DNA of 64,000 nt from Sphingobacteriales bacterium 50-39. Its GTDB lineage: Bacteria; Bacteroidota; Bacteroidia; Chitinophagales; Chitinophagaceae. Below, piece after piece: positions 7,090-37,509 of the stretch (position 1 is the first letter of the stretch; each line of letters opens with the position of its first letter). The stretch lies in NCBI GenBank assembly GCA_001898505.1, contig MKTZ01000027.1, positions 62,001 through 126,000 on the forward strand. Reading direction: 5' to 3'. Below the pieces are notes generated by a model. The model had not been told where the DNA came from and searched no databases. It saw nothing but the letters and a program-made list of their open reading frames with translations. The position numbers and the translations under genes are program-made.

Positions 7090-7220
7090 AAATCGACTGC
7101 TTTTGCTCGTTTTACCCCCCATTCCTGTGTGTTTTATCCCCCATTATCCCCTGTTTAGCTACCTATTTTGCACTTGTTAAGCTGACAATTATTACTAAAA
7201 CTAAACGACTACTTGTCATT

Positions 7221-10200
7221 ATGAGAAGTTCATTGCTTTCGGCTGTAAAAACGGCCAGAATTGTATCGATGTGCGCCCTGCTATTTTGTGCCTCGGCCAC
7301 GCTCTGGGCCCAGCAGGTGATCACAGGAAAAGTAAGCGCGGGCGGCGCCCCTCTCCCGGATGTCACCGTTGCGGTGGTCGGCAGCAAAGTTTCAACCAAG
7401 ACAAACGGTGCGGGAGCTTTTTCCATCAATGCGCCTGCGGGGGCGATCCTCCAATTTACTCATATCGGGTATGCGCCTAAAAGAATCGCCGCCTCACAGG
7501 TTGCGGAAATGGTGGTGCTGGAAACTACCAGCGAGGGTCTGGGCGATGTGGTGGTCGTGGGATATGGTACGACCAGGAAGTCTGACCTGATCAGCTCGGT
7601 AGGGTCCATATCCGGGAAGGAACTGACAACCTTTAAAGATCCCAATGCCGCAAACTCCCTTCAGGGCGAGGTACCGGGTGTCCGTGTGCTGGCCGGTTCA
7701 AATGGCCCGGGTGCACAGCCAAATATCTATATCAGGGGTGTATATACCATCCAGGGAAGCAGCCAGCCGCTTTTGATCGTTGACGGCGTTCCCATCCAGA
7801 GCGGATATTTCAATTCCATCAACCCGGCCGACATTGAAAGAATGGACGTGCTGAAAGATGCCTCGGCTGCGGCTATCTATGGCGCCCAGGCTGCCAGCGG
7901 GGTCATTGTGATAACAACGAAGAAGGGCAAGGCCGGTCAAAGCAATCTGAATGTGACGGTAAATTACCAGTCCCAGACGCTGAAAAAGCCTTTTACGATG
8001 GCCAGCTCCACGGAATGGCTGAAGATCCAGCGGCTGTCCAATCCCAGCTTTAGCATTGCTGAAACGCCCGTCAACCAATACGATACTACCAAGTCGACGG
8101 ATTGGTGGAATGCCGTGATCAATTCCCATAGCCCCACTACGAATGTAGGGATCAGCTATACGGGCGGGTCTGAAAAATCGCAATATGCTTTGAGCCTGTC
8201 CTATACGGATGCTCATGCCAACACCAAGGTTGGTGACTGGAAAAGAGTTACTGCCAGGTTCACCGGGGACTTTAAGGTAAACGAATGGCTCAAGTTCGGC
8301 GGCTCTCTTGCACCACGGTATGAGACCTGGATAAATACGCCTGTGGATTTTTTGGGATTGCTGGGTACAGATCCTATCACAAGCCCGTTCATCAATCCGA
8401 ACCTGCAGCATATCCCTGCTTCCGCCAATCCTTCGCTGTATGATGCTACCTGGAGCGCTTATGGAACACCTTATGGTGGTCCTGGTAACGGAACGCCTCC
8501 TCCCAACTATGTATTTGGTATGAACCTGGCCACATTAAGTCCCAATCAGCTGTATGGGATCCAGTCCAGCGCATTTATGGAAGTTCAGCCTATTAAGAAT
8601 CTGACCTTCCGCACCACCGTTGGAGCCAATGTGGATAATACCACGAATAATTTCTTTACACCCAGATATTATCTGAACTCCAATAACTATAGCGCGCTGA
8701 CCCAGGCTGGTTCAGGGTTCGACACCAAGTACAATTGGGTGCTGAGCAATGTGCTGACGTATAAGCTTTCCGTTGCGGAAAAGCATCATATTACGGCGTT
8801 GGTTGGTCAGGAAGCTGCGGAACAAAAGGAATACTATGGCAGCGGTCAGCGATTTTCCGCGGATAGCGCCAATGGCAACAATCCCCTGTTCGCCTATGCC
8901 GACTACCTGAATATGGACCTGACAAACCCTGCTGTCCTGGCTGCTTTCGGGACCGGACCTACGGGAGGTATCAATAATGCGTATTGGGTGAAGAGATCGG
9001 CTTATTTCGGTCGCGTTGAATATAACTACGACGGCAAATATTATTTAACAGCCAATGCACGCAGAGATGGTAACTCAAAGTTCCCCATCAGCAACCAATA
9101 TGCATTTTTCCCGTCTGTGTCAGTGGGCTGGCGTCTGTCTGCCGAAGATTTCATGAAAAGCTATAGCTGGATGAACAACCTGATGCTGAAGGCAAGATGG
9201 GGTAAGAGAGGTAATGCCGATGCCATCACGCGCAGCACCTGGTATAGCCTGGTATCTACCGGCGCTACCTATCCGTTTGCGGGTCAGATATCGTATGGCA
9301 CCATACCCACGCAGATCGGCAACCCCAATCTGAAATGGGAAACCGACCTGGATCGCGGAGCCGGATTGGAAGGCACTCTTTTTAACAACAAGTTCAATTT
9401 CGAATTCGAGTACTTCGATAACAAGTCCAGCGGCGCTATCCTGACGTTGCCATCTATTCCTTTAAGTGCGGGACAGCCCAATCTGCCGACAGCGAATGTG
9501 GCCAGCATCGGGAACAAAGGCTGGGAATTTTCGGCCAGCTATATCATTACGCCGACCACTGAGCTGAGGATCATCCCCAGGATATCTTTGAGCCATGTAA
9601 AATCCACCTACCTCAGCCTGGGTGGTGTCGAGGGATTGGATGTGGGCGCACAGGATAATTATCGGGAAGAGGAGCGGTTTGGCATGTCCTTTACAAGAAT
9701 GTATACCAAGGGTGTAGTCGGAGCTTTCTATGGTTATAAAGTGGCTGGTATATTCAAGTCACAGTCGGAAATAAATTCCTATGTCGACAAGAACGGCAAT
9801 ATGATACAGCCGCTGGCCAAACCGGGAGATTTCAAATATGTCGATGTAAATGGGGATGGCACCATCAATACAGCCGGTGACCGTACCTATCTGGGCAGCC
9901 CCTATCCGAATCTGAATATGGATTTTTCCCTTAAGGCAGATTACAAAGGGTTCGATCTTTTGGTAGAATTGTATGGTTCATATGGGCAAAAAGTGGCCAA
10001 TACCACCAAGCGCTATCTGATCACCGGCGACCGTGCGTCCAATGTTATCGCCGGGAGCTATGACAAGGTCTGGAGGGCGGACAATCCCAATGCCGTCAAT
10101 CCCAATCCTGCCACCGGGAACAATTATAATTTCTCCAGCTGGTATGTGGAAGATGGAAGCTTTACCAGGCTCCGGAATATCCAGTTGGGATACAACCTTC

Positions 10201-10388
10201 CTTTCCTGAAAGTGAATGGCATCAAGAGCATTCGCGTCTATGTGGGAGCGCAGAACCTGGCTACCTTCACAAAATACAAAGGCTTTAATCCTGAAGTGCA
10301 ATCCGACAGTCAGCAGTATCAAGGTGTTGACAGAGGACAATACCCCGTGCCCAAATCATTTAATGCCGGGATAAGCTTAGTGTTATAA
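7221..10388 (+). CDS. SusC/RagA-family TonB-dependent outer-membrane transporter
   Basis: The frame is open from a GTG at 7086 that overlaps the upstream gene, but the ATG at 7221 begins a proper signal peptide ending at LWAQQ, so I use it (1055 residues). After the signal peptide come a CarboxypepD_reg-like domain (VITGKVSAGGAPLPDVTV, about 33-105), a plug domain (about 125-235, with VDGVPI and the SusC-type DVLKDASAAAIYGAQAASG) and a beta-barrel ending in FNAGISLVL. Such proteins import oligosaccharides across the outer membrane with energy from TonB and with the SusD partner as lid. A near match to the Bacteroidetes -7 element (TATTTTG, 7164-7170) lies 50 bases before the start. The gene is followed by susD after 23 bases. 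Confidence 0.96.
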   Translation: MRSSLLSAVKTARIVSMCALLFCASATLWAQQVITGKVSAGGAPLPDVTVAVVGSKVSTKTNGAGAFSINAPAGAILQFTHIGYAPKRIAASQVAEMVVLETTSEGLGDVVVVGYGTTRKSDLISSVGSISGKELTTFKDPNAANSLQGEVPGVRVLAGSNGPGAQPNIYIRGVYTIQGSSQPLLIVDGVPIQSGYFNSINPADIERMDVLKDASAAAIYGAQAASGVIVITTKKGKAGQSNLNVTVNYQSQTLKKPFTMASSTEWLKIQRLSNPSFSIAETPVNQYDTTKSTDWWNAVINSHSPTTNVGISYTGGSEKSQYALSLSYTDAHANTKVGDWKRVTARFTGDFKVNEWLKFGGSLAPRYETWINTPVDFLGLLGTDPITSPFINPNLQHIPASANPSLYDATWSAYGTPYGGPGNGTPPPNYVFGMNLATLSPNQLYGIQSSAFMEVQPIKNLTFRTTVGANVDNTTNNFFTPRYYLNSNNYSALTQAGSGFDTKYNWVLSNVLTYKLSVAEKHHITALVGQEAAEQKEYYGSGQRFSADSANGNNPLFAYADYLNMDLTNPAVLAAFGTGPTGGINNAYWVKRSAYFGRVEYNYDGKYYLTANARRDGNSKFPISNQYAFFPSVSVGWRLSAEDFMKSYSWMNNLMLKARWGKRGNADAITRSTWYSLVSTGATYPFAGQISYGTIPTQIGNPNLKWETDLDRGAGLEGTLFNNKFNFEFEYFDNKSSGAILTLPSIPLSAGQPNLPTANVASIGNKGWEFSASYIITPTTELRIIPRISLSHVKSTYLSLGGVEGLDVGAQDNYREEERFGMSFTRMYTKGVVGAFYGYKVAGIFKSQSEINSYVDKNGNMIQPLAKPGDFKYVDVNGDGTINTAGDRTYLGSPYPNLNMDFSLKADYKGFDLLVELYGSYGQKVANTTKRYLITGDRASNVIAGSYDKVWRADNPNAVNPNPATGNNYNFSSWYVEDGSFTRLRNIQLGYNLPFLKVNGIKSIRVYVGAQNLATFTKYKGFNPEVQSDSQQYQGVDRGQYPVPKSFNAGISLVL

Positions 10389-10411
10389 TTCTCACCAATA
10401 ACATTGTAAAT

Positions 10412-12001
10412 ATGAAAAATATTAAAATCATACTGCTATTTTCTGGGGTCTTTATTTTCTCTTCGTGTAAGAAGAGTTTCACGGATATTCCATATTACGG
10501 GCTGCAAACTGTACAAAATACGGGTGTATTTCAAACATCCGCGGGTTGTATCAACTATGTGACAGGCTGTTATTCCGTGATCAACGAAAATGACTGGTGG
10601 CAGACCATGTGGTACCGGCTCAATTTCGAAACAGCCACCGATAATGGATGGCTGGGAAATCTGGGAGGATTTAGCAATGCTGCGTCCTACCGGGCTGTCG
10701 GCAGCCTGGAAAGCATCACTCCAACCGCCGGGGATGTTGTCCAGCTTTATCAATTCAGCTACCTGGGTATCGGTCAGTGTAATTTCGGGATCGCCAATTT
10801 AGCAACATCGACCGTTGATGCTCAGTTGAAAACGCGCCTGACCGCCGAAATGCGGTTTTTGAGAGGGTTCTTTTATATGGACCTGGCAAAAAATTTTGGA
10901 GGGGTGCCGCTTTATACCGAGAATACCAAGCAAAGCGAGATCCCGCTGGCAAGAGCTACGGCTGACCAGGTCTGGGCATTTATCAATGCGGATTTTGAAT
11001 ATGCGGCGGCCAATCTGCCTCAACGTAAGAATTATACGACCTCCGAGGATATGGCAAGGGCCAGCAAGGGAGCGGCATTGGCTTATCTGGCTTATGCGAA
11101 CTTATGGTCCGGTCATTATGATTCTACCGTGCTGGCAGCAACACAATTGCTGGCGTTGAATGAATACCATCTCGAGCCCAATTATGGCGATATTTTTAAG
11201 ACTGCCTATTACAATGGGCAGGAGTCGATCTTCGAGATCGGCGCGAATAACCTGATCGGCAACGTGAACCCGGTGGTGGCCGGAAGCGGCGCCGACGGAG
11301 GCTGGGGCTGGCATGTACCCAGCAGCAACCTGGAAGATGCGTTCTTAAATGAAAATGACAGCATCCGCAGGGTCAATACGATCATAAAAAACGGACAGCC
11401 TGTTGCGGGAGATCCGGCAGTGACCAGCTGGAATGGCCGGCCAAGCGGAAATACTTCGGGAAGGAACTGGAGGAAATACTATATCCCGCTGGGAGAACGG
11501 AGCCCTGTCAACCAGGGATATAACAACCGCTGGCAGCCCAAGCCTTATATTTTTATGCGATTGGCTAATGTTATGTTGATCTATGCCGAAGCTGCTGCCC
11601 GGAATGGAGATGCCACAACGGCCAGCTCGATGCTGAACCAGGTACGTGCGCGGGTAAACCTGACGCCAAAGACCGGACTGTCGGGGGATGCATTGGTAAA
11701 TGCCATTATCCTGGAGAAGAGACTGGAATTGGCCGGAGAATATGCGGATGTGAGATGGGATGACCTGCATAGGGTTAAGGTCAATGGCACTACCTTGATG
11801 TCCTCTATGTTCGGGCCCAGTGGTAGCTATGTGCAATGGCTGCAAACAAATACAGACCCGTATGACAGCAGGACCAATATCGCCGAGGTGACTGCCAATA
11901 AGGGGAAGCTGTATAAACCCGGAACCAATGATCTCTTCCCCATTCCACAAACGGAAATTCAAGCGGGTGGTGGAGTCATTAAACAAAACCCCGGGTATTG
12001 A
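10412..12001 (+). CDS. SusD/RagB-family glycan-binding lipoprotein
   Basis: 529 residues. A lipoprotein signal ends at FSSC (Cys19), so the protein is lipid-anchored. The body is the alpha-helical SusD type: an N-terminal SusD-like region (about 25-200, with MRFLRGFFYMDLAKNFGGVP) and a C-terminal RagB/SusD region (about 270-529, with MRLANVMLIYAEAAARNGD, LNQVRARVNL and the ending FPIPQTEIQAGGGVIKQNPGY-like tail). SusD proteins sit on the cell surface over the SusC barrel and hold the glycan during import. The gene is co-directional with susC and 17 bases ahead of the hydrolase gene, so the three are very likely co-transcribed. Confidence 0.96.
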   Translation: MKNIKIILLFSGVFIFSSCKKSFTDIPYYGLQTVQNTGVFQTSAGCINYVTGCYSVINENDWWQTMWYRLNFETATDNGWLGNLGGFSNAASYRAVGSLESITPTAGDVVQLYQFSYLGIGQCNFGIANLATSTVDAQLKTRLTAEMRFLRGFFYMDLAKNFGGVPLYTENTKQSEIPLARATADQVWAFINADFEYAAANLPQRKNYTTSEDMARASKGAALAYLAYANLWSGHYDSTVLAATQLLALNEYHLEPNYGDIFKTAYYNGQESIFEIGANNLIGNVNPVVAGSGADGGWGWHVPSSNLEDAFLNENDSIRRVNTIIKNGQPVAGDPAVTSWNGRPSGNTSGRNWRKYYIPLGERSPVNQGYNNRWQPKPYIFMRLANVMLIYAEAAARNGDATTASSMLNQVRARVNLTPKTGLSGDALVNAIILEKRLELAGEYADVRWDDLHRVKVNGTTLMSSMFGPSGSYVQWLQTNTDPYDSRTNIAEVTANKGKLYKPGTNDLFPIPQTEIQAGGGVIKQNPGY

Positions 12002-12018
12002 TGCTCAATGAAAACTAA

Positions 12019-13671
12019 ATGAACAGATCAAGACAGGCTATGATAAATATTTTTTTTGTACTACTTTCTTTGGCGTTGAGTTGTAAGAAGGGAAGCTCTT
12101 CTTCCTCTTTTCCACCAACAGACCCGTGCATTTTCAATGGTATCGATACCTGCCAGCAAAAGTCGACGCTGGAGGTGAATCTGGCCGGCACCCATCAAAC
12201 CATTCACAGTTTCGGCGCGTCCGATGCGTGGTCCTCGAAGTTCGTTGGCAACTGGGCTAATCTTTCAAAGAAAAACCAAATAGCCGATTATCTTTTTAGC
12301 ATGGATGTAGATTCCAGCGGCAACCCAAAAGGCATTGGGTTGTCGCTTTGGAGATTCAATATCGGCGCCGGGAGCTATGAGCAGGGTGATTCCAGCGGCA
12401 TAGCGGACGAGTACAGGCGGGAGGAGTGTTTTCAAAATCCGGATGGGACCTATTCGTGGAATAAGCAACAGGGCCAGCAATGGTTTTTGAATGCGGCCAA
12501 GACGAGGGGGGTAAAGTACCTGTTAGGTTTTGCGTGTTCCCCTCCCGTCTATCTGACCACCAATGGCAAAGCCTATGGGACGGGTACTGCTCAATTCAGC
12601 CTGAGCTCTTCCAAGTTCCAGAACTATGCCGACTTTCTCGTCCAGGTATGCAAGCATTTCCAGGGAACCAGTACGCCCCTGGATTATATAAGTCCTGTCA
12701 ATGAGCCGCAATGGAATTGGGGGTCTTCGAACAACCAGGAGGGATCGGCTGCATCCAATGCGGACATTGCCGGGCTTGTGAAGATACTCGGACCTGACCT
12801 GCAGGCAAATGGGGTAAACACCCATATCGTAGTGGGCGAGGCCGGGCAGATAACTTTTCTGAACAATGCCACTAATGATGGCCGGGGTGATCAAATAAAC
12901 CAGTGGTTCAATTCTTCCAGTTCGAATTATCTGGGGGGTGTGGCGGGTGTTGACAATACTATTTCTTATCATAGCTATTTCACCACCTGTCCGGCTGCGA
13001 CGCTTGTGACGGACCGCCAGGCGGCGGCTGCCAGTGCCAAGAGCGCCAATTCCTCTCTTCAATTGTGGGAGACGGAGTTTGGGGTCCTGGGGGATATCTG
13101 TGGATCATTGAATGGCTATCCGAGAAATACGAGTATTGATTACGGGTTGTATGTGGCGGGAGTGATCCATAACGACCTGGCTGTTGCGGGCGCCTCCTCC
13201 TGGCAGTGGTGGCTGGGTATCAACCCTTATAATTACAGTGACGGCTTAGTGTATATCAATACTCCATCAGGTGCGATGGACCCGTCATTGTCAAAGACGG
13301 ACGGTCTGGTTTCTGATTCCAAGCAACTGTGGTGTATGGGGAACTTTTCGCGATTTGTCCGGCCGGGGATGATCAGAGTGGATGCTGTTCTGAACAATCA
13401 AACCGACCCCGTGTATGCAGCAGGCGATGTCATGGTGTCGGCCTATACAGACCCTGTTGCCAAAACGCTGGTCCTTGTCATCGTAAATAACCGGACAAGC
13501 TCTTCTGTTATATCTTTGGGAGGGCTGGGCGGATCGGCCACCCTGACGGGTAGTACTATTACGGCTTATGTGACCAGCAGCACGAAGAGCTTGCAGAAGT
13601 CCACCATGGCCGCTAACAAGATCCAGCTGGACGCCAGAAGTGTCACTACCCTGGTGGCAAACTATCAGTAA
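12019..13671 (+). CDS. GH30-family-like surface lipoprotein glycoside hydrolase (candidate endo-beta-1,6-galactanase)
   Basis: 550 residues with lipoprotein Cys22 (LALSC), so probably surface-exposed. The N-terminal strand motif TIHSFGASDAW, the acid motif SPVNEPQWNW (Glu229) and LQLWETEFGVLG (nucleophile probably Glu353) match the clan GH-A layout of family GH30 and its beta-1,6-galactanase-like relatives; the C-terminal 120 residues form the beta-sandwich typical of GH30. The family includes beta-1,6-galactanases, beta-xylanases and beta-glucosidases, and subfamily cannot be fixed by eye. The neighbouring GH35 beta-galactosidase makes a galactan target more likely (inference). The stop codon overlaps the next start (TAATG). 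Confidence 0.8.
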   Translation: MNRSRQAMINIFFVLLSLALSCKKGSSSSSFPPTDPCIFNGIDTCQQKSTLEVNLAGTHQTIHSFGASDAWSSKFVGNWANLSKKNQIADYLFSMDVDSSGNPKGIGLSLWRFNIGAGSYEQGDSSGIADEYRREECFQNPDGTYSWNKQQGQQWFLNAAKTRGVKYLLGFACSPPVYLTTNGKAYGTGTAQFSLSSSKFQNYADFLVQVCKHFQGTSTPLDYISPVNEPQWNWGSSNNQEGSAASNADIAGLVKILGPDLQANGVNTHIVVGEAGQITFLNNATNDGRGDQINQWFNSSSSNYLGGVAGVDNTISYHSYFTTCPAATLVTDRQAAAASAKSANSSLQLWETEFGVLGDICGSLNGYPRNTSIDYGLYVAGVIHNDLAVAGASSWQWWLGINPYNYSDGLVYINTPSGAMDPSLSKTDGLVSDSKQLWCMGNFSRFVRPGMIRVDAVLNNQTDPVYAAGDVMVSAYTDPVAKTLVLVIVNNRTSSSVISLGGLGGSATLTGSTITAYVTSSTKSLQKSTMAANKIQLDARSVTTLVANYQ

Positions 13672-16600
13672 TGTACGCCACGGGACGAAATATAAGTTTT
13701 TTCCTTTTGTCATGGCTGTTGCTATGCCCAATCCTTTTCCTGTCCTGCAAAGAGAATAGTAGCCCCCACACCCTTTTTAGCAAGCTGGATGCCGGAACTT
13801 CCGGCATCCATTTTAGTAATACCATTACGGAGAACGACTCTGTCAACCTGGTAGTTGATGAATATACCTATATGGGCAGCGGTGTTGGCGTGGGGGATTT
13901 TAACAGGGACGGGCTGCCGGACCTTTTTTTCGGGGCATCGCAGGCCAGTTGCCGTCTGTATCTGAACCTGGGCAATCATCATTTCGAGGATATTACAAAA
14001 AAGGCGGGGCTGGAAACGACCAGCTGGTGTACCGGTGTCAGTGTGGTGGACATCAACAATGACGGGTATCCTGATATTTATGTTTGTGTATCGGGTAATG
14101 TGCCGGGTGTTAAGAGAAAGAACCTGCTTTTTATCAATAACCACGATCTTACGTTCACGGAAAGTGCGTCTGAATATGGCCTGGCTGATACCAGCTATTC
14201 TACCCAGGCGGCGTTCTTCGACTATGACAGGGACGGGCGGCTGGATATGTATCTTGTCAACCATGAGCTGCATCCTGCCGTTGCGCAAAACGATATTGTC
14301 AAGCCTGACCTCAGCGGGCATTCCATCCGAAGCGATAAGCTATATAAGAACATGGGTATCCTTCCGGGCACCAACCATCCTTATTTTAAGGATGTTTCGT
14401 TATCTGCCGGCATCAAGGATGATGGATATGGGCTTGGGGTTGTTGTGAGTGATCTTAATGGGGACGGGTGGCCGGATCTATATGTCACCAATGACTATTT
14501 AAGTAATGACCTTTTGTGGCTGAACAACAGGAATGGGACATTCACCAATGTTATTGCAGAATCGCTGGGGCATCAAAGTTATAGCAGCATGGGGGTGGAT
14601 GCGGCAGATATCAACAACGACGGACTTCCGGATATTGCCACGTTGGACATGATGCCTGAGGACAATTACCGGAAAAAGATGATGTTCTCGTTTATGAATT
14701 ACGGTCGCTATGAAACGGAAAGAAGGGCAGGGTATCAGCCGGAATTCATGAGGAATATGCTACAGCTAAACCGGGGGGTGAGTCTTAATGGCGATACGGC
14801 TATACCCTATTTTAGCGAGATCGGGCAATTGGCGGGAATGAGCGAGACGGATTGGAGCTGGAGTGTGTTGCTGGCTGATCTGGATAACGACGGCAATAAG
14901 GATATCAGCATTACGAATGGAATGGGGCGGGACCTGATCAATTCGGATTTTGTAAGTTACCGGAGTCAAACTTATGGGGTGATCGAGAAGAGTGCACGGG
15001 AGCGACTGCTGAGAGGTCAGCTGGACAGCCTGGGCGCTGTGCCTTTGCGCCATTATTATTTCCATAACAATGGTAACGGGAGTTTTTCTAATGAGTCTTT
15101 GTTGGCGGGATTTAGTGAAAAAGCCATTTCCAATGGGGCGGCTTATGTGGACCTGGATAATGACGGCGATCTGGATCTTGTGGTGAATAATATCAACCAG
15201 GAGGCGTCTGTCTATATCAATAACAGCCGGGGGGACGGGAACAGCCGCGGAGCGGGGGGAGACAGCGGCAGGGGGCATTTTATAAATTTTGTGCTGCAGG
15301 GGGATAGTCTGAACCGGGATGGATTTGGAACGAAGATCTTTTTGTGGCAAAATGGGCTTGTGCAATCCGAGGAAGAATATCCTGTCAGGGGGTATGCTTC
15401 TTCTGTGGATACGAGGATGCATTTCGGAGTTGGGAAGAATGGGCGGATCGATAGCGTGATCGTCACCTGGCCCAATGGGAAACAACAGCGTTTGTCCGGG
15501 CTGCCAATAGATACGACGCTGGTGATGGATGAAAAGGATGCGGGGCGAGCCGATGCGGACCACCGTTGGCTGGGGGCCTTTGTCGATGTAACGGATTCGC
15601 TTGGGGTGCGGGTTAAACACCAGGAAACATTCTTTAATGATTTTGCTTTTACGCCGCTGCTTCCGCAGAAATATTCGCAGCTGGGTCCTTTTATAAGTGT
15701 GGGTGATGTGAACGGGGATGGTCTTACCGACTTCTTTATCGGGGGCGCTTTTAAACAATCGGGGGAGGTTTGTTTGCAGCAAAAGAACGGGTCCTTTCTA
15801 TGCCGGGCATTGGTGGGTGGACCGAAATACGAGGAGGACATGCAGAGCGTACTGGTAGATGTAGATGGAGATAATGACCTCGACCTGATCGTTGCGGGTG
15901 GCAGCACCGAGTTCGATAAAGGATCGCCGTTCCATACACCCCGACTTTATCTTAACGATGGCAAGGGAAATTTTGCGTTGAGCCCGTCGGCCTGGCCGGG
16001 GACCGTCAATACAATTGCGCAAGCCGTGAGCTTTACGGGGGGCGGGGGAGCGCCTTTGCGGGTTTTTATCGGCGGGAGGGTATCGCTCGAGTATCCTGGT
16101 ACGCCCAAAAGTTTTTTGCTGGAGTATCGAAATGGCGTGTTTGTGGATATAACCGCTGAAGTATGTCCTGCCTTGTCCGAAGCGGGGATGATAACGGCGT
16201 CTGTTTGGGCCGATGTTGATGGGGATGGGAAGGATGAGCTTATCATCGCCGGCGATTGGATGCCGATACGTGTTTTCAAAGCCGATGGCGGGAAGATGAA
16301 GGAAGTGACCAGCTCCCTGGGGCTGGGGGGTGATCATGGCATGTGGAAAAGTCTTGCGGTGGCGGATGTAGATGGAGATGGGGATATGGATATTATAGCC
16401 GGGAATATGGGCTCGAACAACCCGTATCATGTTTCGGCAGAGACGCCGCTGGAGCTGTTTGCGAAGGACCTTAAAGGAAATGGGCGGATCGATCCCCTGC
16501 TCTGTTATTATATACCGGATGATGCCGGAAAAAAGACATTACAGCTTGGACTGAATCTGGATCAGCTGGCCCGGCAGATACCTTCTTTTAAAAAGCGGTT

Positions 16601-17060
16601 CCTGCGGAACACTGATTTCGCATCGACCGATCTTGGGGGCTTGTTCCCGGACGATGTTTTGAAGGATGCTATTAAGCTCCGGTGCAATGAATTGCATAGC
16701 TGCTGGTTTGAGAATTTAGGGGGTGGGAAATTTCGTAAACATATTTTGCCTTTAGAAGCTCAGTTTGCTCCCGTGAATGCGATAGTTGCCCATGATCTGG
16801 ACGGAGATGGCAAACCGGATCTGTTACTGGCGGGTAATGAGTATCAGGCGGAAGTGATGTATGGCCGCTATGATGCATCTTATGGCCTGTTCTTGAAAGG
16901 AGAAGGGGCGGGGGAATTTAGGGCTTTGACAAATGTTGGAGATGGGATATTTATTAAGGGCGATGTGAAAGACATGAAGTTGATAAAGAACAGCCGTGGC
17001 GATGACCTGATCCTGGTTGGGATAAATAATGAGCGAATGGAAATTTTAAGACATAGATAA
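13671..17060 (+). CDS. Large FG-GAP/VCBS-repeat lipoprotein with ASPIC/UnbV domain
   Basis: 1129 residues starting in the TAATG overlap with the GH30 stop. A lipoprotein signal ends at FLSC (Cys26). The rest is two runs of FG-GAP/VCBS propeller repeats (about 60-500 and 655-1125) carrying many calcium-loop motifs such as DINNDGYPD, DLNGDGWPD and DVDGDGKDE, with an ASPIC/UnbV domain between them (about 540-615; GFGTKIFLWQNG, VIVTWPNGKQQ). Proteins of this kind are frequent beside susCD in Bacteroidetes and are presumed to bind glycans or to be surface scaffolds; no enzymatic residues are evident. Its position between two hydrolase genes with almost no spacing argues for a role in the same locus. 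Confidence 0.85.
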   Translation: MYATGRNISFFLLSWLLLCPILFLSCKENSSPHTLFSKLDAGTSGIHFSNTITENDSVNLVVDEYTYMGSGVGVGDFNRDGLPDLFFGASQASCRLYLNLGNHHFEDITKKAGLETTSWCTGVSVVDINNDGYPDIYVCVSGNVPGVKRKNLLFINNHDLTFTESASEYGLADTSYSTQAAFFDYDRDGRLDMYLVNHELHPAVAQNDIVKPDLSGHSIRSDKLYKNMGILPGTNHPYFKDVSLSAGIKDDGYGLGVVVSDLNGDGWPDLYVTNDYLSNDLLWLNNRNGTFTNVIAESLGHQSYSSMGVDAADINNDGLPDIATLDMMPEDNYRKKMMFSFMNYGRYETERRAGYQPEFMRNMLQLNRGVSLNGDTAIPYFSEIGQLAGMSETDWSWSVLLADLDNDGNKDISITNGMGRDLINSDFVSYRSQTYGVIEKSARERLLRGQLDSLGAVPLRHYYFHNNGNGSFSNESLLAGFSEKAISNGAAYVDLDNDGDLDLVVNNINQEASVYINNSRGDGNSRGAGGDSGRGHFINFVLQGDSLNRDGFGTKIFLWQNGLVQSEEEYPVRGYASSVDTRMHFGVGKNGRIDSVIVTWPNGKQQRLSGLPIDTTLVMDEKDAGRADADHRWLGAFVDVTDSLGVRVKHQETFFNDFAFTPLLPQKYSQLGPFISVGDVNGDGLTDFFIGGAFKQSGEVCLQQKNGSFLCRALVGGPKYEEDMQSVLVDVDGDNDLDLIVAGGSTEFDKGSPFHTPRLYLNDGKGNFALSPSAWPGTVNTIAQAVSFTGGGGAPLRVFIGGRVSLEYPGTPKSFLLEYRNGVFVDITAEVCPALSEAGMITASVWADVDGDGKDELIIAGDWMPIRVFKADGGKMKEVTSSLGLGGDHGMWKSLAVADVDGDGDMDIIAGNMGSNNPYHVSAETPLELFAKDLKGNGRIDPLLCYYIPDDAGKKTLQLGLNLDQLARQIPSFKKRFLRNTDFASTDLGGLFPDDVLKDAIKLRCNELHSCWFENLGGGKFRKHILPLEAQFAPVNAIVAHDLDGDGKPDLLLAGNEYQAEVMYGRYDASYGLFLKGEGAGEFRALTNVGDGIFIKGDVKDMKLIKNSRGDDLILVGINNERMEILRHR

Positions 17061-17067
17061 AAATTGA

Positions 17068-18894
17068 ATGATGAATAGATTTTTTTTGGCTGTGCTATGT
17101 GTGCTATTTACGATGAGTTCCTCCATGGCACAGAAGCATACGTTTACAGTAAATGATACTGCGTTCTTATTGGATGGGAAACCATTTCAGATAATATCGG
17201 GGGAGATGCATTATCCCCGGATACCGAGGGAGGCGTGGAGGCAAAGGATGAAGATGGCAAAGGCCATGGGTATCAATACCATTGGGACATATGCGTTCTG
17301 GAATGTGCATGAACCGGAGAGGGGCAAATTCGACTTCTCAGGGAATAGTGATATTGCGGCTTTTGTGAAGATCGCGAAGGAAGAGGGATTGTGGGTGGTG
17401 CTTCGGCCCAGCCCTTATGTTTGTGCGGAATGGGAGTTTGGCGGGTATCCCTATTGGTTGCAGAACATCAAGGGGTTGGTGGTGAGGAGCAAGGAGCCGC
17501 AGTATCTAAAGGAATATGAAAGTTATATCGACCGGCTGGGTAAGGAACTGTCTCCGTTGCTGGTGACCAATGGGGGGAATATCCTGCTTGTTCAGGTAGA
17601 GAATGAGTATGGGGCTTATTCAAATGACAGAGAATATCTCGAGATCAACCGGCGGCTATTTGTCCGGGCGGGTTTTAATTGTCTTCTGAATACCTGTGAT
17701 CAATCAAAAGATGTGGAAAAAGGGATACTACCCGGATTGCTGCCTGCTGTAAATGGGACCAACAGCCCGGATAATGTAAAGTCGATCATAAATAAGATCA
17801 ATAATAACAAGGGGCCCTATTTTGTTTCTGAATGGTATCCTGCATGGTTTGACTGGTGGGGGGAGCAGCATCATACCGTGCCTTCTGAAAAATATGCCCA
17901 GCAATTGGATTCGATCCTGTCGGCGGGTATTTCTATCAATATGTATATGTTCCATGGAGGAACGACGCGGGGCTTTATGAACGGCGCAAATTGTTATGAC
18001 ACCTCCTATTACCAGCCGCAGATCAGCAGCTATGATTATGATGCGCCGCTGGATGAAGCAGGCAATGCAACTGAAAAATTTATGGTTTTCAGGGGTGTAA
18101 TAGAACGTCATCTGCCGAAGGGGCAACGTCTTCCCGAGGTGCCGGCGACGAAAAGGACTATTGTCTTACCGCGGATCGCATTTAAGGAGCAGACTTCGCT
18201 GGCCAGTTTTCTTCCAAAGCCTACCGAGGGTTTAAGGCCGCTGACCTTTGAAGACCTTCATCAGGGATATGGATATGTTTTATACCGGACAAGGATCAAG
18301 GGAGGGGATTCCGGCGTGTTGAGACTGAAAGACCTTCGGGACTATGCGATCGTATTTATCAATGGGAAGAGGAAGGGAGTTTTGGACCGGATGCAAAAGC
18401 AGGACAGTCTTTGGCTTTCCATTCCCCGGGGAGAGGCGACCCTGGATGTGCTGGTAGAAAATATGGGCCGGATAAATTTCGGACCTAACCTTTTGAAGAA
18501 TAAGAAGGGTATTACCCAGGAGGTGTTGTTTAATCAGAAGGAGGTTAAGGGGTGGAAGATGTTCTCTTTGCCTTTTGACCGGGTGGACTCTGTGAAATTT
18601 GCGAAGAGTGGGGGTGTGACTGAGATGCCCGTATTAAAAAAGGCGGTGTTCCAATTGGAGGCTGTTGGTGACACGTATCTGGATATGCGCGCCTGGGGAA
18701 AAGGGTGTGTGTGGGTGAATGGGCATCATTTGGGGAGGTATTGGGAAATAGGACCTCAGCAGACTTTGTATGTTCCGGTGGAGTGGTTGAAGAAGGGAAA
18801 TAATGTGATAGAGGTGCTGGAGTTGTTGAAACCCGGGCAGAATGAGATCAGGAGTGTTGAGAAGCCGATATTAAGTTCTCTCAGATCACAGTAG
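17068..18894 (+). CDS. GH35 beta-galactosidase
   Basis: 608 residues with a signal peptide ending near MSSSMAQ (about residue 21), so it is periplasmic or secreted. The GH35 hallmarks are all present: ISGEMHYPRIP, RPSPYVCAEWEFGG, the acid/base Glu180 in QVENEYG, and the nucleophile Glu255 in SEWYPAWFDWWG, followed by NMYMFHGGTTRGFMNG. The C terminus holds the usual jelly-roll domains ending in WVNGHHLGRYWEIGPQ. The enzyme removes terminal beta-linked galactose. Two ATGs sit in tandem at 17068 and 17071. It is the last gene of the locus: only seven bases separate it from the gene before, and the next gene is convergent. Confidence 0.95.
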   Translation: MMNRFFLAVLCVLFTMSSSMAQKHTFTVNDTAFLLDGKPFQIISGEMHYPRIPREAWRQRMKMAKAMGINTIGTYAFWNVHEPERGKFDFSGNSDIAAFVKIAKEEGLWVVLRPSPYVCAEWEFGGYPYWLQNIKGLVVRSKEPQYLKEYESYIDRLGKELSPLLVTNGGNILLVQVENEYGAYSNDREYLEINRRLFVRAGFNCLLNTCDQSKDVEKGILPGLLPAVNGTNSPDNVKSIINKINNNKGPYFVSEWYPAWFDWWGEQHHTVPSEKYAQQLDSILSAGISINMYMFHGGTTRGFMNGANCYDTSYYQPQISSYDYDAPLDEAGNATEKFMVFRGVIERHLPKGQRLPEVPATKRTIVLPRIAFKEQTSLASFLPKPTEGLRPLTFEDLHQGYGYVLYRTRIKGGDSGVLRLKDLRDYAIVFINGKRKGVLDRMQKQDSLWLSIPRGEATLDVLVENMGRINFGPNLLKNKKGITQEVLFNQKEVKGWKMFSLPFDRVDSVKFAKSGGVTEMPVLKKAVFQLEAVGDTYLDMRAWGKGCVWVNGHHLGRYWEIGPQQTLYVPVEWLKKGNNVIEVLELLKPGQNEIRSVEKPILSSLRSQ

Positions 18895-28672: not shown

Positions 28673-30796
<2,124 letters not shown>

Positions 30797-31798: not shown

Positions 31799-31911
31799 TC
31801 CCTTTGCCAAGCTCGTTGATTTCTGAGCAGGATTGGCTAAAAATGTATCAGCATTCCGTTCCGGAGAGCTTTAACATTGTGAATTCTTTTCACTACTATA
31901 AACTCCTGATC

Positions 31912-32910
31912 ATGCGTAGATACGCTCTCGTCTTTTGCCTGCTGCCCGCCTGTATGTCTGTCTTTTCCCAGCCTTTTGCCCCTGTGAACAAGGATGCTTC
32001 CCCGGAGGCAAAGCAGCTGTTGGCTTATTTATACAGCATCAATGGTAAAAAGCTGCTCAGCGGTCAGCATAATTTCAACCAGAATATGGATCAATACAGC
32101 GACTCCGTGCATGTTCTTACGGGAAAATATCCCGCTGTCTGGGGTACTGATTTTATATGGAACTGGACGACGGATAATGGCCAGGCCATTGTCGATGAAT
32201 GTATCCGCAAGCACAAGGCGGGGTATATCATTACGCTGATGTGGCACCAGGGACGGCCATTGGATGAGCCGCCTTTCCGCTGGAAGGAGAGCATTCAGGG
32301 AAAGCTGACAGATGCAGAGTGGAAGGAGCTGACTACGGAAGGGACGCCGCTGTATAAAAAATGGCTGGCGCAGATAGATGTGGTTGCGGGATGGCTGGGG
32401 CAATTGAATGCAGCACATGTCCCCATCCTTTGGCGGCCCTATCACGAGATGAATGGGATATGGTTCTGGTGGGGTAATAAGCCAGGCAAGGATGGGATTG
32501 CCAAGCTCTGGAAAATGATGTACGACAGGTATGTCAACCACTTCCATTTGAACAATCTCCTCTGGGTATGGGGCGCCAATGGGCCGCGGGATATTCCTGC
32601 GGATGAGGCATATTCCTACAAGAATTTCTATCCGGGGCATGCGTTTGCAGATATTCTGGGAACGGATGTATATCATATGGATTATGAGCAAAAGGATTAC
32701 AATGAACTTCTCGATCTGGCGCAGGGCAGGCTGATCGCCCTTACCGAATGTGGGGAGTTGCCCAGTGCCGCCATCCTGGACGCTCAACCGAAATGGTCCT
32801 GGTTCCTCGAATGGTCAGACTGGATCGTTAGTCATAACAGCCCCCAGCAGGTGAGGACGGTGTATGACAGACCGCAGACGCTGACACATGAGCAGGTGGA
32901 AATAAAATAA
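31912..32910 (+). CDS. GH26 beta-mannanase
   Basis: 332 residues from the ATG at 31912, which starts a signal peptide ending VFSQP; upstream ATGs at 31804 and 31843 only add non-conserved sequence. GH26 landmarks: GKKLLSGQHNF, the acid/base Glu179 in WRPYHEMNG with IWFWWG, and the nucleophile Glu279 in LIALTECGELP. The family cleaves beta-1,4-mannan and galactomannan or glucomannan, and some members are mannobiohydrolases. It is secreted. Only seven bases separate it from the GH9/epimerase fusion, so the two are one transcription unit with a shared substrate. Confidence 0.93.
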   Translation: MRRYALVFCLLPACMSVFSQPFAPVNKDASPEAKQLLAYLYSINGKKLLSGQHNFNQNMDQYSDSVHVLTGKYPAVWGTDFIWNWTTDNGQAIVDECIRKHKAGYIITLMWHQGRPLDEPPFRWKESIQGKLTDAEWKELTTEGTPLYKKWLAQIDVVAGWLGQLNAAHVPILWRPYHEMNGIWFWWGNKPGKDGIAKLWKMMYDRYVNHFHLNNLLWVWGANGPRDIPADEAYSYKNFYPGHAFADILGTDVYHMDYEQKDYNELLDLAQGRLIALTECGELPSAAILDAQPKWSWFLEWSDWIVSHNSPQQVRTVYDRPQTLTHEQVEIK

Positions 32911-32917
32911 TTTTTCG

Positions 32918-35900
32918 ATGAGATATATTTTGCTTTTGGCAATACTAGGACTTGGCGCACACCAGGGGCGGGCGCAGATGCATCTCAACAACCGTGAGTA
33001 CCTGGAATATGAGGGGGTGAATGTGATGTTGGCGTACGATTTTTATCCTGAAGGCCACCAGGGAGGGGTGGGTGTGATACAGCATGGGCAGCGGGTGGCG
33101 ACGAATGGAGATCTACGGCTGGAGCCTACACCCGGCCAGTGGCAACCGATTCCCAAAGTCGGCAAACGTGTGGTGGACAGGTCCACCGGCAGTATCAGCG
33201 TGCATATGGAGTATCCGGATGAGACGAAGGATAGAAAGGGGTTCAATCCTATTCTATATCCTGACCTGCATTTGGGGTATACCATCCGGGTGGTGCCTGC
33301 CGGCAAGGCTTTTAAGATCATCGTAGACCTCGACAGTGCCCTGCCCGCGGCATGGATCGGAAAGGTCGGGTTCAATTTCGAATTGTATCCCGGCGTCCTT
33401 TTTGGCAGGTCATACTATATGGATAGTCTGTCCGGTATCTTCCCGCAACAACCCAACGGTCCTTATTACAAGGATGCGGATGGGGAATGGCAGATCAAGC
33501 CAATGGCAGCGGGCCGGCGGCTGGTGGTGGCGCCTGAGAGTGACAGGCAGCGAATGGTCATCGAGAACTTGAAAGGCGGTGCGTTGCAGCTGATAGATGG
33601 GCGGGGCAAGCACAATAACGGCTGGTTTGTCGTACGCAGTCTGGCGCCCGGGGGCGTTACGAAAGGAGCTATCGAATGGCTGGTTACACCCTATGCCATC
33701 CAAGGCTGGCAGGCTTCGCCCACTGTACAGGTATCGCAGGTCGGTTATCATCCCCTGCAAAAGAAGGTGGCTGTCATCGAACTGGATGCACGGGACAAGA
33801 AAAGGCAGCCGGCATCTTTGTTACGGATCGGCGAGCGTGGAGAGTACGAGACCGTGCTGCAAGCAGCGCCGCATGAATGGGGGGATTTCTTACGATATCA
33901 CTATCTGCAATTCGACTTTAGTTCTGTCCGGCGGTCAGGCATGTATGTGGTGAGGTATGGTAGTGTGCAGACCAATCCCTTTCAGATCGGGGACAGTGTA
34001 TATGTCCGGAATGTTTGGCAGCCTACGTTGGAATATTTCCTGCCTGTCCAGATGTGTCATATGCGAGTGAATGATAAATACCGTGTCTGGCACGGGTACT
34101 GTCATATGGATGATGCGCGTATGGCGCCTGTGGATTCGAACCATTTTGACGGCTATATACAGGGCCCTTCCACGCTGACCAACTTCCGGAGCGGTGAGAC
34201 CGTGCCCGGGTTGAATGCAGGCGCGTGGCATGATGCGGGGGATTTTGACCTGCGGGTGGAATCGCAAGCCGAGACCGTGTATGGATTGACGCTGGCCTAT
34301 GAGGCTTTTGGTGTCGACTATGACAATACTACCGTCGACCAGCGTAAGCACCTGGTGGAGATACAGCAGCCGGATGGGAAGCCCGACATGCTGCAGCAGG
34401 TGGAGCATGGCCTTCTTTCCATCGTGGGTGGCTATAAGAGCATGGGCAGGTTCTACCGGGGTATTATCGAGCCAACTCTGAGACAGTATACTATATTGGG
34501 CGATGCTGCCAATATCACGGATAATAAATTTTATGATGGCGCCGGTGTGGCTGACGACCGGTGGGTCTTTACGGAGAACAACCCCGGAAGGGCATTACAG
34601 GTGGCCGCTGCGCTGGCTGCCGCCCATCGTGTGATGAAGGGGTACAACGACACGCTGGCCGGTGACTGTCTGACAATAGCTACACAAGTGTGGACGAATA
34701 CAAAGGAGATGAATGCGGGACAGCGTGTAGAGCTGGCGGCGGAACTGTATCTTACCACCCGGGATAAACTGTATGCGGAATTTTTGGTGGACCATAGCCA
34801 GGACATCGTCCGGAGCATCGACCGGCACGGATGGGTCATCGGCCGGGTATTGCCGTTGTTGAAAGATGCCGGATTGACTTCTGCTGTTACGGCGGCTATG
34901 AAGACTTTGCGGGACTCCATCGTTGCGAGGGGTAAAAGAACGCCCTATGGTGTGCCGTATGAGCCAAATATCTGGGGGGCAGGTTGGGATATCCAGCATT
35001 TCGGAGCAAGACAATATTTCCTGCATCAGGGTTTCCCCGACATCTTTTCGACCGACTATATGCTGGCCGCGTTGAATTTTATTCTTGGCGTTCATCCTGG
35101 CGAGAACACTGCCAGTTTTGCTTCCGGGGTAGGGGCTCATTCCATGATACCCGCGTATGGGTTCAATCGTGCCGACTGGAGCTATATACCCGGTGGCATT
35201 GCGTCGGGTACGGCACTGATCCGGCCTGATCTTCCCGAGCTATTGCCATTCCCCTATCTCTGGCAGCAGGGCGAATATGTGCTGGGGGGAGGTACTACAG
35301 ATTATTTGATACTTGTACTGGGAGCGAACCAGGTGCTGAAGGACAGCATCCTGGCCCAGATGCGTTATGCCGCCAAGGAGGGACTGCTCGATAAATATTA
35401 TCCTGCAGATATCGACACATTGGATGGCGGCTATCTTAGCACTTTCAGCTATGACTTTAAGCCGGTGGGTCCACAGGATAAGATGATCGTCACGCAATCC
35501 AGGCATATCTGGTCGACGTCAAAGGCCGCCCAGTTCTATCACGACAGCTCCTATATTGCGATGGCGCGGCATGGTTTTTATTTCCTTCGTGACAAAATGT
35601 GGGATGCCCAGTATGGGGGTTTTTACAATCTTGTCGCCCGGGATGGCAGTCCTAAGGGCAAGATAAAAGAGGCTTATGGCAATGCATTCGCCATCTATGC
35701 GCTGTCCGCCTATTATGCTGCTTCGGGGGATCGGGCGGCGCTGGACCTGGCGAAGAAAACTTTTCTCTGGCTGGAAAAGCACAGTCATGACCCGCGATAC
35801 CTGGGCTATTACCAGCACCTGGAACAGGATGGGACGCCGGTGGTTCGTACAGCGGCTATGGACAGTCGCTCGGATATGGGTTACAAGGATCAAAACAGCT

Positions 35901-36625
35901 CCATCCATCTGCTGGAGGCATTTACCGAGCTATACCATGTCTGGCCTGATCCGCTGGTTCGCCGGCGTCTGCAAGAAATGCTGGAGATTGTCAGGGACAG
36001 GATCGTCACTTCCAGGGGCTTTTTGCAATTGTTCTTTACTACTGACTGGCGGTCTGTCAGCTACCGGGACTCTTCGGAGCAGTCGATACTGCAGCACAGG
36101 TACTTGGATCATGTTTCTTTCGGACATGATGTGGAGACCGCCTACCTGATGCAGGAAGCGTCGGAGACACTGGGGTTGAAGGATGACCGGGCGACTTTTG
36201 CCATAGGAAAGAAGATGGTGGATCATGCGTTGGCGAATGGTTGGGATAATGTGTTGGGTGGGTTCTACGATGAAGGTTACTATTTCAAGGACCGGGCGGG
36301 CTGCACCATTATCAACAAGAGCAAGAACTGGTGGGCCCAGGCGGAGGGGCTAAATACCCTGCTGATCTTTTCGGAGCTGTATCCCAATGATCCGATGCAT
36401 TATAAGGACCGATGGGTCAAGCTTTGGCAGTATGTACAAACCTATCTCATCGATCATGAGCACGGGGATTGGTATGAGGAGGGGCTGGACAATGAACCGC
36501 AACGCAGGACCGCGTTAAAAGCTCATATCTGGAAAGGAACATACCATGTTTTCCGGGCCCTGAGCAATTGTATCCGGCGGCTGAACGGTCGCCAAACCAG
36601 TGGCGAAGGCGGAGATCATTTGTAA
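32918..36625 (+). CDS. Secreted GH9 glycoside hydrolase fused to a cellobiose/mannobiose 2-epimerase-type (AGE family) domain
   Basis: 1235 residues. A signal peptide (1-19, ending GRAQ) precedes an unassigned beta-rich region (about 22-265), a CelD_N-type Ig domain (about 270-360, VSQVGYHPLQKKVAV) and a GH9 catalytic region (about 375-815). The GH9 motif HDAGDFD carries Asp439 and Asp442; Glu786 in WQQGEYVLGG sits where the acid is expected. From about 840 to 1228 lies a complete (alpha/alpha)6 epimerase domain: SRHIW (Arg862), KEAYGNAFAIYALSAYY, NSSIHLLEAF (His997), FGHDVE (His1070), WWAQAEGL and KGTYHVFRA (His1210), matching the catalytic histidines of cellobiose 2-epimerases. It follows GH26, suggesting mannan or glucomannan as target. 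The linker contains no stop or frameshift. The stop region overlaps the beta-lactamase gene by ten bases. Confidence 0.85.
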   Translation: MRYILLLAILGLGAHQGRAQMHLNNREYLEYEGVNVMLAYDFYPEGHQGGVGVIQHGQRVATNGDLRLEPTPGQWQPIPKVGKRVVDRSTGSISVHMEYPDETKDRKGFNPILYPDLHLGYTIRVVPAGKAFKIIVDLDSALPAAWIGKVGFNFELYPGVLFGRSYYMDSLSGIFPQQPNGPYYKDADGEWQIKPMAAGRRLVVAPESDRQRMVIENLKGGALQLIDGRGKHNNGWFVVRSLAPGGVTKGAIEWLVTPYAIQGWQASPTVQVSQVGYHPLQKKVAVIELDARDKKRQPASLLRIGERGEYETVLQAAPHEWGDFLRYHYLQFDFSSVRRSGMYVVRYGSVQTNPFQIGDSVYVRNVWQPTLEYFLPVQMCHMRVNDKYRVWHGYCHMDDARMAPVDSNHFDGYIQGPSTLTNFRSGETVPGLNAGAWHDAGDFDLRVESQAETVYGLTLAYEAFGVDYDNTTVDQRKHLVEIQQPDGKPDMLQQVEHGLLSIVGGYKSMGRFYRGIIEPTLRQYTILGDAANITDNKFYDGAGVADDRWVFTENNPGRALQVAAALAAAHRVMKGYNDTLAGDCLTIATQVWTNTKEMNAGQRVELAAELYLTTRDKLYAEFLVDHSQDIVRSIDRHGWVIGRVLPLLKDAGLTSAVTAAMKTLRDSIVARGKRTPYGVPYEPNIWGAGWDIQHFGARQYFLHQGFPDIFSTDYMLAALNFILGVHPGENTASFASGVGAHSMIPAYGFNRADWSYIPGGIASGTALIRPDLPELLPFPYLWQQGEYVLGGGTTDYLILVLGANQVLKDSILAQMRYAAKEGLLDKYYPADIDTLDGGYLSTFSYDFKPVGPQDKMIVTQSRHIWSTSKAAQFYHDSSYIAMARHGFYFLRDKMWDAQYGGFYNLVARDGSPKGKIKEAYGNAFAIYALSAYYAASGDRAALDLAKKTFLWLEKHSHDPRYLGYYQHLEQDGTPVVRTAAMDSRSDMGYKDQNSSIHLLEAFTELYHVWPDPLVRRRLQEMLEIVRDRIVTSRGFLQLFFTTDWRSVSYRDSSEQSILQHRYLDHVSFGHDVETAYLMQEASETLGLKDDRATFAIGKKMVDHALANGWDNVLGGFYDEGYYFKDRAGCTIINKSKNWWAQAEGLNTLLIFSELYPNDPMHYKDRWVKLWQYVQTYLIDHEHGDWYEEGLDNEPQRRTALKAHIWKGTYHVFRALSNCIRRLNGRQTSGEGGDHL

Positions 36626-37509
36626 GCTGCGGCTGCAATCCTGGCAATGACTCTTTCGCGGGTGGGTTCATCTGCTGCTGCGTCTTTTACAAAAACGGAG
36701 ATGATCAGGGGTTTCCCGTCTGGCAAGGTGATGATCCCTACGTCGTTGGTGGCAGCGGTGATGCCTTTGTCATTGGTATTGGAGGTTCCTGTTTTGTGGG
36801 CGAGGGGTATGCCGGGGGGTAGCAGGCCTTTGAGACGTCCGGGTCCTGTCGAGGTATTGATCATGAACTGCATTAGAATTTTAGTGGTGGCGGGTTTGAG
36901 TATTTTCCCATCTATAAAGAGCTCCAGCAGCGCTGTCATGGCGTCCGGGGTACACCAGTTACCGTATTGTACGTTCCAGGCCCTGGCCATCTCCGTCTCG
37001 GTGGCTACGATGGCGATGTCTTTGACGCCTGTGTGGTGAATGAAGTCGTTGACTATGCGTGTGCCTCCTGTGAGCCTGAAGAGGATGTCGCATCCACTGT
37101 TATCGCTGTAGGAGACGGTATATCGGAGCAATGTTTGGAGAGGGATATCGGCCGTCTGTCCGTTGAGGGAGTCGCGCAAGGGGCTCCAGATCTTTGGCGC
37201 CCAATCTTTTTGGTCGATGTGGATCATTTGATCGAGGGAAAACCTGCCGTTGTCCACGTCGTGGAGGATCTTGAGGGCGAGAGGGAATTTAAAGACGGAT
37301 TGCATAGGGAAATGTTCCATCCCATGTAAGGATATGCGCCGGCCTGATGCTTTGTAGTGGAGGGAGACTCCCACGATGCCCCTGGCGTCTTTGGCAATGG
37401 TTCCCAGACTGTCCTGTAATGCGTTCGCTGCAGGCCTGGATTGGCTGGTCTGGCCAAAAGAGGCGGCGGGTAGGGATAGAAGCCCTATGAATAAGGTGAT
37501 AAGTTTCAT
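36616..37509 (-). CDS. Class A beta-lactamase, PER/CfxA-like (subclass A2)
   Basis: 297 residues with a signal peptide ending SFGQ. All active-site motifs are present: Ser71 and Lys74 in MQSVFKFPLA, the SDN loop at 135-137, the omega-loop Glu171 in VATETEM, and HKTGTSN (KTG). Gln before the active serine, a long YGNWCTPDAM segment and the tail TAATNDVGIITLPDG resemble PER-type extended-spectrum enzymes and CfxA. The enzyme hydrolyses beta-lactams in the periplasm; spectrum cannot be read from sequence. The gene overlaps the convergent GH9/epimerase gene by ten bases and has no mobile element beside it, so it looks chromosomal. Confidence 0.93.
   Translation of the reverse strand: MKLITLFIGLLSLPAASFGQTSQSRPAANALQDSLGTIAKDARGIVGVSLHYKASGRRISLHGMEHFPMQSVFKFPLALKILHDVDNGRFSLDQMIHIDQKDWAPKIWSPLRDSLNGQTADIPLQTLLRYTVSYSDNSGCDILFRLTGGTRIVNDFIHHTGVKDIAIVATETEMARAWNVQYGNWCTPDAMTALLELFIDGKILKPATTKILMQFMINTSTGPGRLKGLLPPGIPLAHKTGTSNTNDKGITAATNDVGIITLPDGKPLIISVFVKDAAADEPTRERVIARIAAAAYK

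Follow-up and report, generated by a model that had tools for sequence, protein, structure and literature searches.

The window analysed here, a stretch of 64,000 nucleotides from Sphingobacteriales bacterium 50-39 (contig MKTZ01000027.1, positions 62,001 to 126,000), carries a gene in which a predicted exported glycoside hydrolase of family 9 (GH9) runs directly into a sugar 2-epimerase domain of the AGE type. A single unbroken frame of 1235 codons spans 32918-36625 on the forward strand, as a first-pass annotation of this DNA had claimed, and the signal peptide, CelD_N-GH9 unit and complete AGE-type domain described there are borne out by Pfam matches above their cut-offs and, for the N-terminus, by inspection by eye. 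The gene and its parts are as follows.

32918..36625, forward strand: whole fusion gene, 1235 amino acids, from the ATG at 32918 to the stop at 36625
32918..32977, forward strand: predicted signal peptide, residues 1-20, read by eye; no lipobox seen
32978..33712, forward strand: N-terminal beta-rich domain, residues 21-265, from strands in AlphaFold2 (AF2) models
33713..33967, forward strand: CelD_N Ig-like domain, residues 266-350 (PF02927, 31.7 bits, cut-off 24.6)
34082..35341, forward strand: GH9 catalytic domain, about residues 389-808, with D439, D442 and E786 (PF00759)
35315..35362, forward strand: junction of the GH9 and AGE parts, residues 800-815, with neither a linker nor a trace of an epimerase signal peptide
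35342..36583, forward strand: AGE-type 2-epimerase domain, residues 809-1222, with R862, H997, H1070, E1073 and H1210
36050..36115, forward strand: 22-residue lid loop between alpha7 and alpha8, residues 1045-1066, with D1051, from row lengths and the alignment to 8h1k

Both catalytic halves keep the residues named in the first-pass annotation (HDAGD at 438-442, E786, R862, H997, H1070 and H1210). On the hydrolase side, Glyco_hydro_9 (PF00759) matches residues 389-641 with 49.3 bits (cut-off 27.7), over profile positions 26-264 of 444 only, and D439, D442 and E786 are invariant in all 19 aligned GH9 rows; we take the two aspartates to be the catalytic pair and E786 the catalytic acid, the latter assigned by position, without alignment to a solved GH9. 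A fold search with the AF2 model ranks GH9 structures at the top, with low confidence in the catalytic loops (predicted local distance difference test, pLDDT, under 50 over residues 338-423 and 700-771), and residues 24-265 matched no Pfam family at E up to 0.1. A paralogue with the same domain arrangement but no epimerase (40% identical over residues 14-802) lies elsewhere in the genome (C15:304163-306613; L002). On the epimerase side, GlcNAc_2-epim (PF07221) is matched over its full length (profile 1-347 of 347) by residues 838-1214 with 129.7 bits (cut-off 23.4), and the C-terminal part is predicted to fold into an (alpha/alpha)6 barrel, in line with the AGE fold claimed for it. R862 and E1073 presumably serve in catalysis. 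They and the three histidines are unchanged across all 17 aligned rows, in columns that match the RmCE positions; the catalytic roles of the histidines in AGE-type enzymes are described in the available text of PMC5726027.

An artefact of one assembly, an outcome named beforehand as refuting the fusion, is rejected, since the fusion is present in three assemblies and all its parts look constrained. Among the related loci examined (the best 80 of 231 relatives), two have the same fused architecture: L058, in a Chitinophagaceae metagenome-assembled genome (MAG), with a fused frame of 1238 codons from stop to stop, and L134, in a Bacteroidota MAG, with a fused frame of 1289 codons. Between the window gene and L058 the ratio of nonsynonymous to synonymous substitution rates (dN/dS) is 0.07 for the N-terminal part, 0.07 for GH9 and 0.05 for the AGE part; these ratios are rough because dS is 1.3-2.2, and they point to purifying selection on all three parts of the protein. 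A survey of 294 genomes of the family gave 116 matches at E up to 1e-30, fused by open frame in our genome and in G035, which by length and junction is the same contig as L134, and a survey of 395 genomes of the class gave 12 matches at E up to 1e-100, our genome included, with no additional fusion. Two further candidates were discarded: the 871-codon open frame in G668 is really a 474-residue epimerase gene preceded by a long open stretch, and the frame of 1303 reported for G127 (same genus) is two genes split by one in-frame TAA, the epimerase having its own signal-like start.

The three fusions do not share a single origin. Approximately unbiased (AU) tests reject joining all three fused epimerase domains (p 5.7e-6) and all three fused GH9 parts (p 0.0029), and do not reject a common origin of the window and L058 fusions (p 0.475). 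The junctions fit this division: GH9 passes directly into the epimerase in the window, with seven extra residues in L058 and through a Pro/Ala-rich linker in L134. On the strength of these tests, with which the junction types agree, we conclude from the sequences that the fusion arose at least twice. The AGE clade of the window and L058 includes the unfused L057 and L059, and L058 groups with L057 in the AGE tree (99/88, from a bootstrap not yet converged). Positions 9860-9935 of L057 (Flavitalea sp. BT771) hold a 54-base stretch that resembles window positions 31828-31880 (81%, E 1e-4, a weak match), which sit just ahead of the GH26 gene described below. The place of this stretch before the L057 epimerase suggests a deletion of both GH26 and GH9 from that locus.

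An orthologue of the window's GH9 (over 55% identity) accompanies the epimerase in 32 of the 80 loci (fused in two, on the same strand in 25 and on the opposite strand in five), a lower bound because contig ends cut some loci. By a simple hydrophobicity rule, the epimerase has a signal-like N-terminus in 73 of the 80 loci, or 73 of the 78 unfused ones, and none of the five cytoplasmic-type epimerases of the same loci passes. The seven failures comprise the two fused proteins, the truncated frame of L135, and L076, L089, L104 and L133, in which a hydrophobic stretch is seen by eye and missed by the rule (no near Met, or a His inside). Given both the unfused GH9 neighbours and the signal-like N-termini of unfused epimerases, export looks ancestral and the fusion is probably secondary. 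A pattern search finds a lipobox-like motif in two related-locus epimerases; because the window protein shows neither a lipobox nor a type-9 sorting domain, we infer the periplasm as its compartment. Exported epimerases of L092, L093, L095, L104 and other Mucilaginibacter or Hymenobacteraceae loci have about 75-90 extra C-terminal residues, and the epimerase of L081, labelled Williamsia sp. (Actinomycetota), falls among Chitinophagaceae in the tree, probably from a mislabelled or mixed MAG.

Two further carbohydrate-active genes lie upstream of the fusion.

31912..32910, forward strand: GH26 (beta-mannanase family) with a signal-peptide-like N-terminus (PF02156, 172.8 bits)
28673..30784, reverse strand: GH97 (alpha-galactosidase-like; PF10566, 344.6 bits)

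The tandem arrangement with GH26 holds: seven bases separate the GH26 stop from the fusion ATG, the likely GH26 start by eye is the ATG at 31912 and not the TTG at 31804, and this gene is the sole GH26 match in the 7.9-Mb genome (E up to 0.001). Membership of the GH97 in this pathway is possible but uncertain, as it shares only about 25-28% identity with the GH97s near related epimerases. No SusC/SusD pair adjoins the fusion enzymes; the window's pair, at 7086-11998, stands with GH30 and GH35. It is part of a separate polysaccharide cluster at 3016-18894 on the forward strand, with a hybrid two-component regulator, SusC, SusD, GH30_2, an FG-GAP/ASPIC protein (1129 residues) and GH35. Downstream, a convergent gene of the beta-lactamase family (36616-37509, reverse strand; PF13354, 133.9 bits) overlaps the end of the fusion by 10 bases.

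In the related loci, the surroundings of the exported epimerases point to beta-mannan. GH26 occurs in 14 of the 80, namely in 11 of the 32 with GH9 versus three of the 48 without (Fisher p 0.002, an optimistic value because the loci are related and not independent). L091 shows the gene order GH5-type (25 bits, cut-off 23.5), SSF symporter, GH130, cytoplasmic-type epimerase, GH26, exported epimerase, SusC, SusD, FG-GAP/ASPIC protein and CE2-group gene; several of these are assigned by cluster membership, with cluster representatives checked. The Mucilaginibacter loci L095 and L099 have a cytoplasmic-type epimerase, GH97, CE2, GH9, the exported epimerase and GH26, and relatives including L066 and L091 have a SusC/D pair next to the enzymes. 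Ten of the 80 loci (L057, L058, L063, L066, L071, L091, L114, L120, L132 and L134) have an FG-GAP/ASPIC protein of about 1200 residues close to the exported epimerase.

The first-pass annotation was correct that the window holds no GH130, as none of the genome's three matches (one of them weak) falls there, but its view that the onward route for the product is open does not stand. On contig C21 of the same genome, an SSF symporter (68% identical to that of L091) directly precedes a GH130 gene (63% to that of L091), and a separate cytoplasmic-type epimerase is encoded on contig C27 near 400 kb. On the NCBI cellobiose 2-epimerase model (EpiA equivalog NF041848; curated cut-off 800 bits) this epimerase scores 415 bits and the fused domain 155-160; three cytoplasmic copies score 376-415, likewise below the cut-off. 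GH130 was found in 19 of 20 chosen genomes, and in L071, L091, L095, L099 and L112 a cytoplasmic-type epimerase shares a locus of about 20 kb with the exported one. Replacement of an absent cytoplasmic enzyme by the exported one is rejected, as this genome encodes both types; because it already has the symporter-GH130 pair as well, the gene content marks the exported epimerase as an additional enzyme beside the intracellular route.

How the AGE half compares with characterised enzymes bears on its substrate. It shares with cellobiose 2-epimerases (RmCE, 3wkf/9l8i; RaCE, 3vw5; CsCE, 4z4j; and 5zig) the (alpha/alpha)6 barrel, the His triad, the Arg and the Glu, the WW and WK..YH motifs and a link to mannan pathways, but it is only 23-29% identical to them. 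A further difference lies in the alpha7-alpha8 lid. Of the 81 exported-type rows, 80 have 22 residues between Trp and SFGH and one has 26, and an Asp stands at Trp+7 in 80; all six distinct cytoplasmic-type rows have seven residues there (eight rows, of which two are duplicates). By eye the stretch measures seven in 5zig and RmCE and 30 in RsME, the D-mannose (glucose) 2-epimerase of Runella slithyformis (Runsl_4512, 8h1k-8h1n). Cellobiose 2-epimerases have an open pocket and a short alpha7-alpha8 loop. In RsME, as Wang et al. 2023 reportedly found, the loop covers the pocket and hinders disaccharides, and the ligand is contacted by Trp251 and Asp254. D1051 aligns to the column of Asp254 in 8h1k, the mutated residue named in the PDB titles, and RsME is also the top hit of the clade profile (185 bits against 180 and 173). 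The RsME study is cited in the part of PMC13363691 available to us.

We propose, with slightly better than even confidence, that the fusion is an exported two-enzyme protein of beta-mannan or glucomannan breakdown whose AGE half is a C2 epimerase of released small sugars. Cleavage of the polymer by GH26 and the GH9 half would take place outside the inner membrane, after which the AGE half would swap the C2 configuration of the released sugars (mannose to glucose or back) by the proton transfer of 2-epimerases, using its His triad. This exported epimerisation would supplement the intracellular epimerase-GH130 route, not replace it. Because of the lid loop, free mannose appears at least as likely a substrate as mannobiose, so that, as far as sequence can tell, the DISACCHARIDE reading of the substrate is followed only in part. 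A tentative alternative, which we consider possible but less probable than our proposal, is that the AGE half acts on mannobiose or cello-oligosaccharides set free by GH26 and GH9 and epimerises their reducing end, yielding Man-Glc (or Glc-Man) outside the cytoplasm for import by the symporter and use by GH130. The 22-residue lid, compared with seven in cytoplasmic cellobiose-type enzymes, argues against it, as does the much greater closeness of the genome's own cytoplasmic epimerase to cellobiose 2-epimerase, because the same reaction would then be duplicated. Several observations nevertheless weigh against the free-mannose reading. RsME ranks first only with the clade profile, the window sequence by itself scoring 164 bits on 5zig versus 147 on RsME, and the structural Z score slightly favours cellobiose 2-epimerase. 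Trp251 of RsME stands opposite a gap and has no counterpart here, the alignment of the Asp adjoins that gap, and RsME has FW in place of WW and the longer loop of 30 residues. Against the link to beta-mannan, GH26 was not seen in 66 of the 80 loci, nor GH9 in 48.

Other readings concern the chemistry of the AGE half and the reason for the fusion. An aldose-ketose isomerase (acting, for example, from mannose to fructose) is unlikely in view of the clade profile, which gives 138-185 bits on cellobiose and mannose 2-epimerases versus 79 on the D-mannose isomerase 5x32 and 48-53 on YihS-type rows; these scores, however, separate subfamilies more than reactions, because N-acyl 2-epimerases reach only 47-90. 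An inactive barrel retained for binding is highly improbable, given that the Arg, the Glu and all three His of this half are invariant across the 17 rows and that dN/dS against L058 is 0.05. The fusion itself would have arisen when a pair of operon genes lost the stop codon, the spacer and the signal peptide of the epimerase that lay between them, and we are evenly divided on whether it has a kinetic role or is a costless stop-codon loss after which the enzymes act independently. The rarity of the fused state (three, in the window, L058 and L134, versus 25 unfused same-strand neighbours) is consistent with independence, as are the absence of a linker in one lineage and the Pro/Ala-rich linker in the other, and the retention of the epimerase in L057, where no GH26 or GH9 was found adjoining; the recurrence from at least two origins and the continuing constraint on both halves speak for a role.

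Among hydrolases, GH9 enzymes with CelD_N (the metagenomic endoglucanase 3x17, BoGH9A 6dht and the exo-glucosaminidases 5dgr/6gdt) match the GH9 fold, and for 3x17 and 6dht a sequence alignment also extends from CelD_N into GH9, but identity in the fold searches is only 12-21%, and the fusion has in addition an N-terminal beta domain and the C-terminal epimerase. Bacterial beta-mannan sets such as PUL219 (PMC6643232) and the B. ovatus/B. fragilis system (PMC6385246) likewise combine GH26, an epimerase and GH130; in the text of these papers available to us, the cellobiose 2-epimerase is intracellular, and no exported epimerase or GH9-epimerase pair was seen. Nor did the searched, mainly open-access literature, in the portions accessible, yield a description of an exported or GH-fused 2-epimerase. 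An exported Bacteroidota 2-epimerase clade paired with a GH9 subfamily and repeatedly fused to it is, as far as that literature goes, new. The fusion is a variant of known enzyme kinds and no new kind of system. The first-pass observation is thus confirmed, and its interpretation, right on architecture and export signal, is partly supported.

We judge from these sequence comparisons that the fused and unfused enzymes represent a putative exported 2-epimerase subfamily in beta-mannan breakdown. Whether they form a widespread, undescribed clade of Bacteroidota that epimerises mannan-derived sugars at C2 outside the cytoplasm, tied functionally to the one GH9 subfamily to which it was fused at least twice, is to us an even call. 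In known mannan pathways, as far as the accessible texts describe them, the 2-epimerase works intracellularly on sugars already taken up, and the exported clade would shift the change of sugar identity to a step before uptake. If this is true, the reconstruction of mannan pathways in Bacteroidota changes, and the fusion would offer a natural hydrolase-epimerase enzyme whose predicted activities are directly testable.

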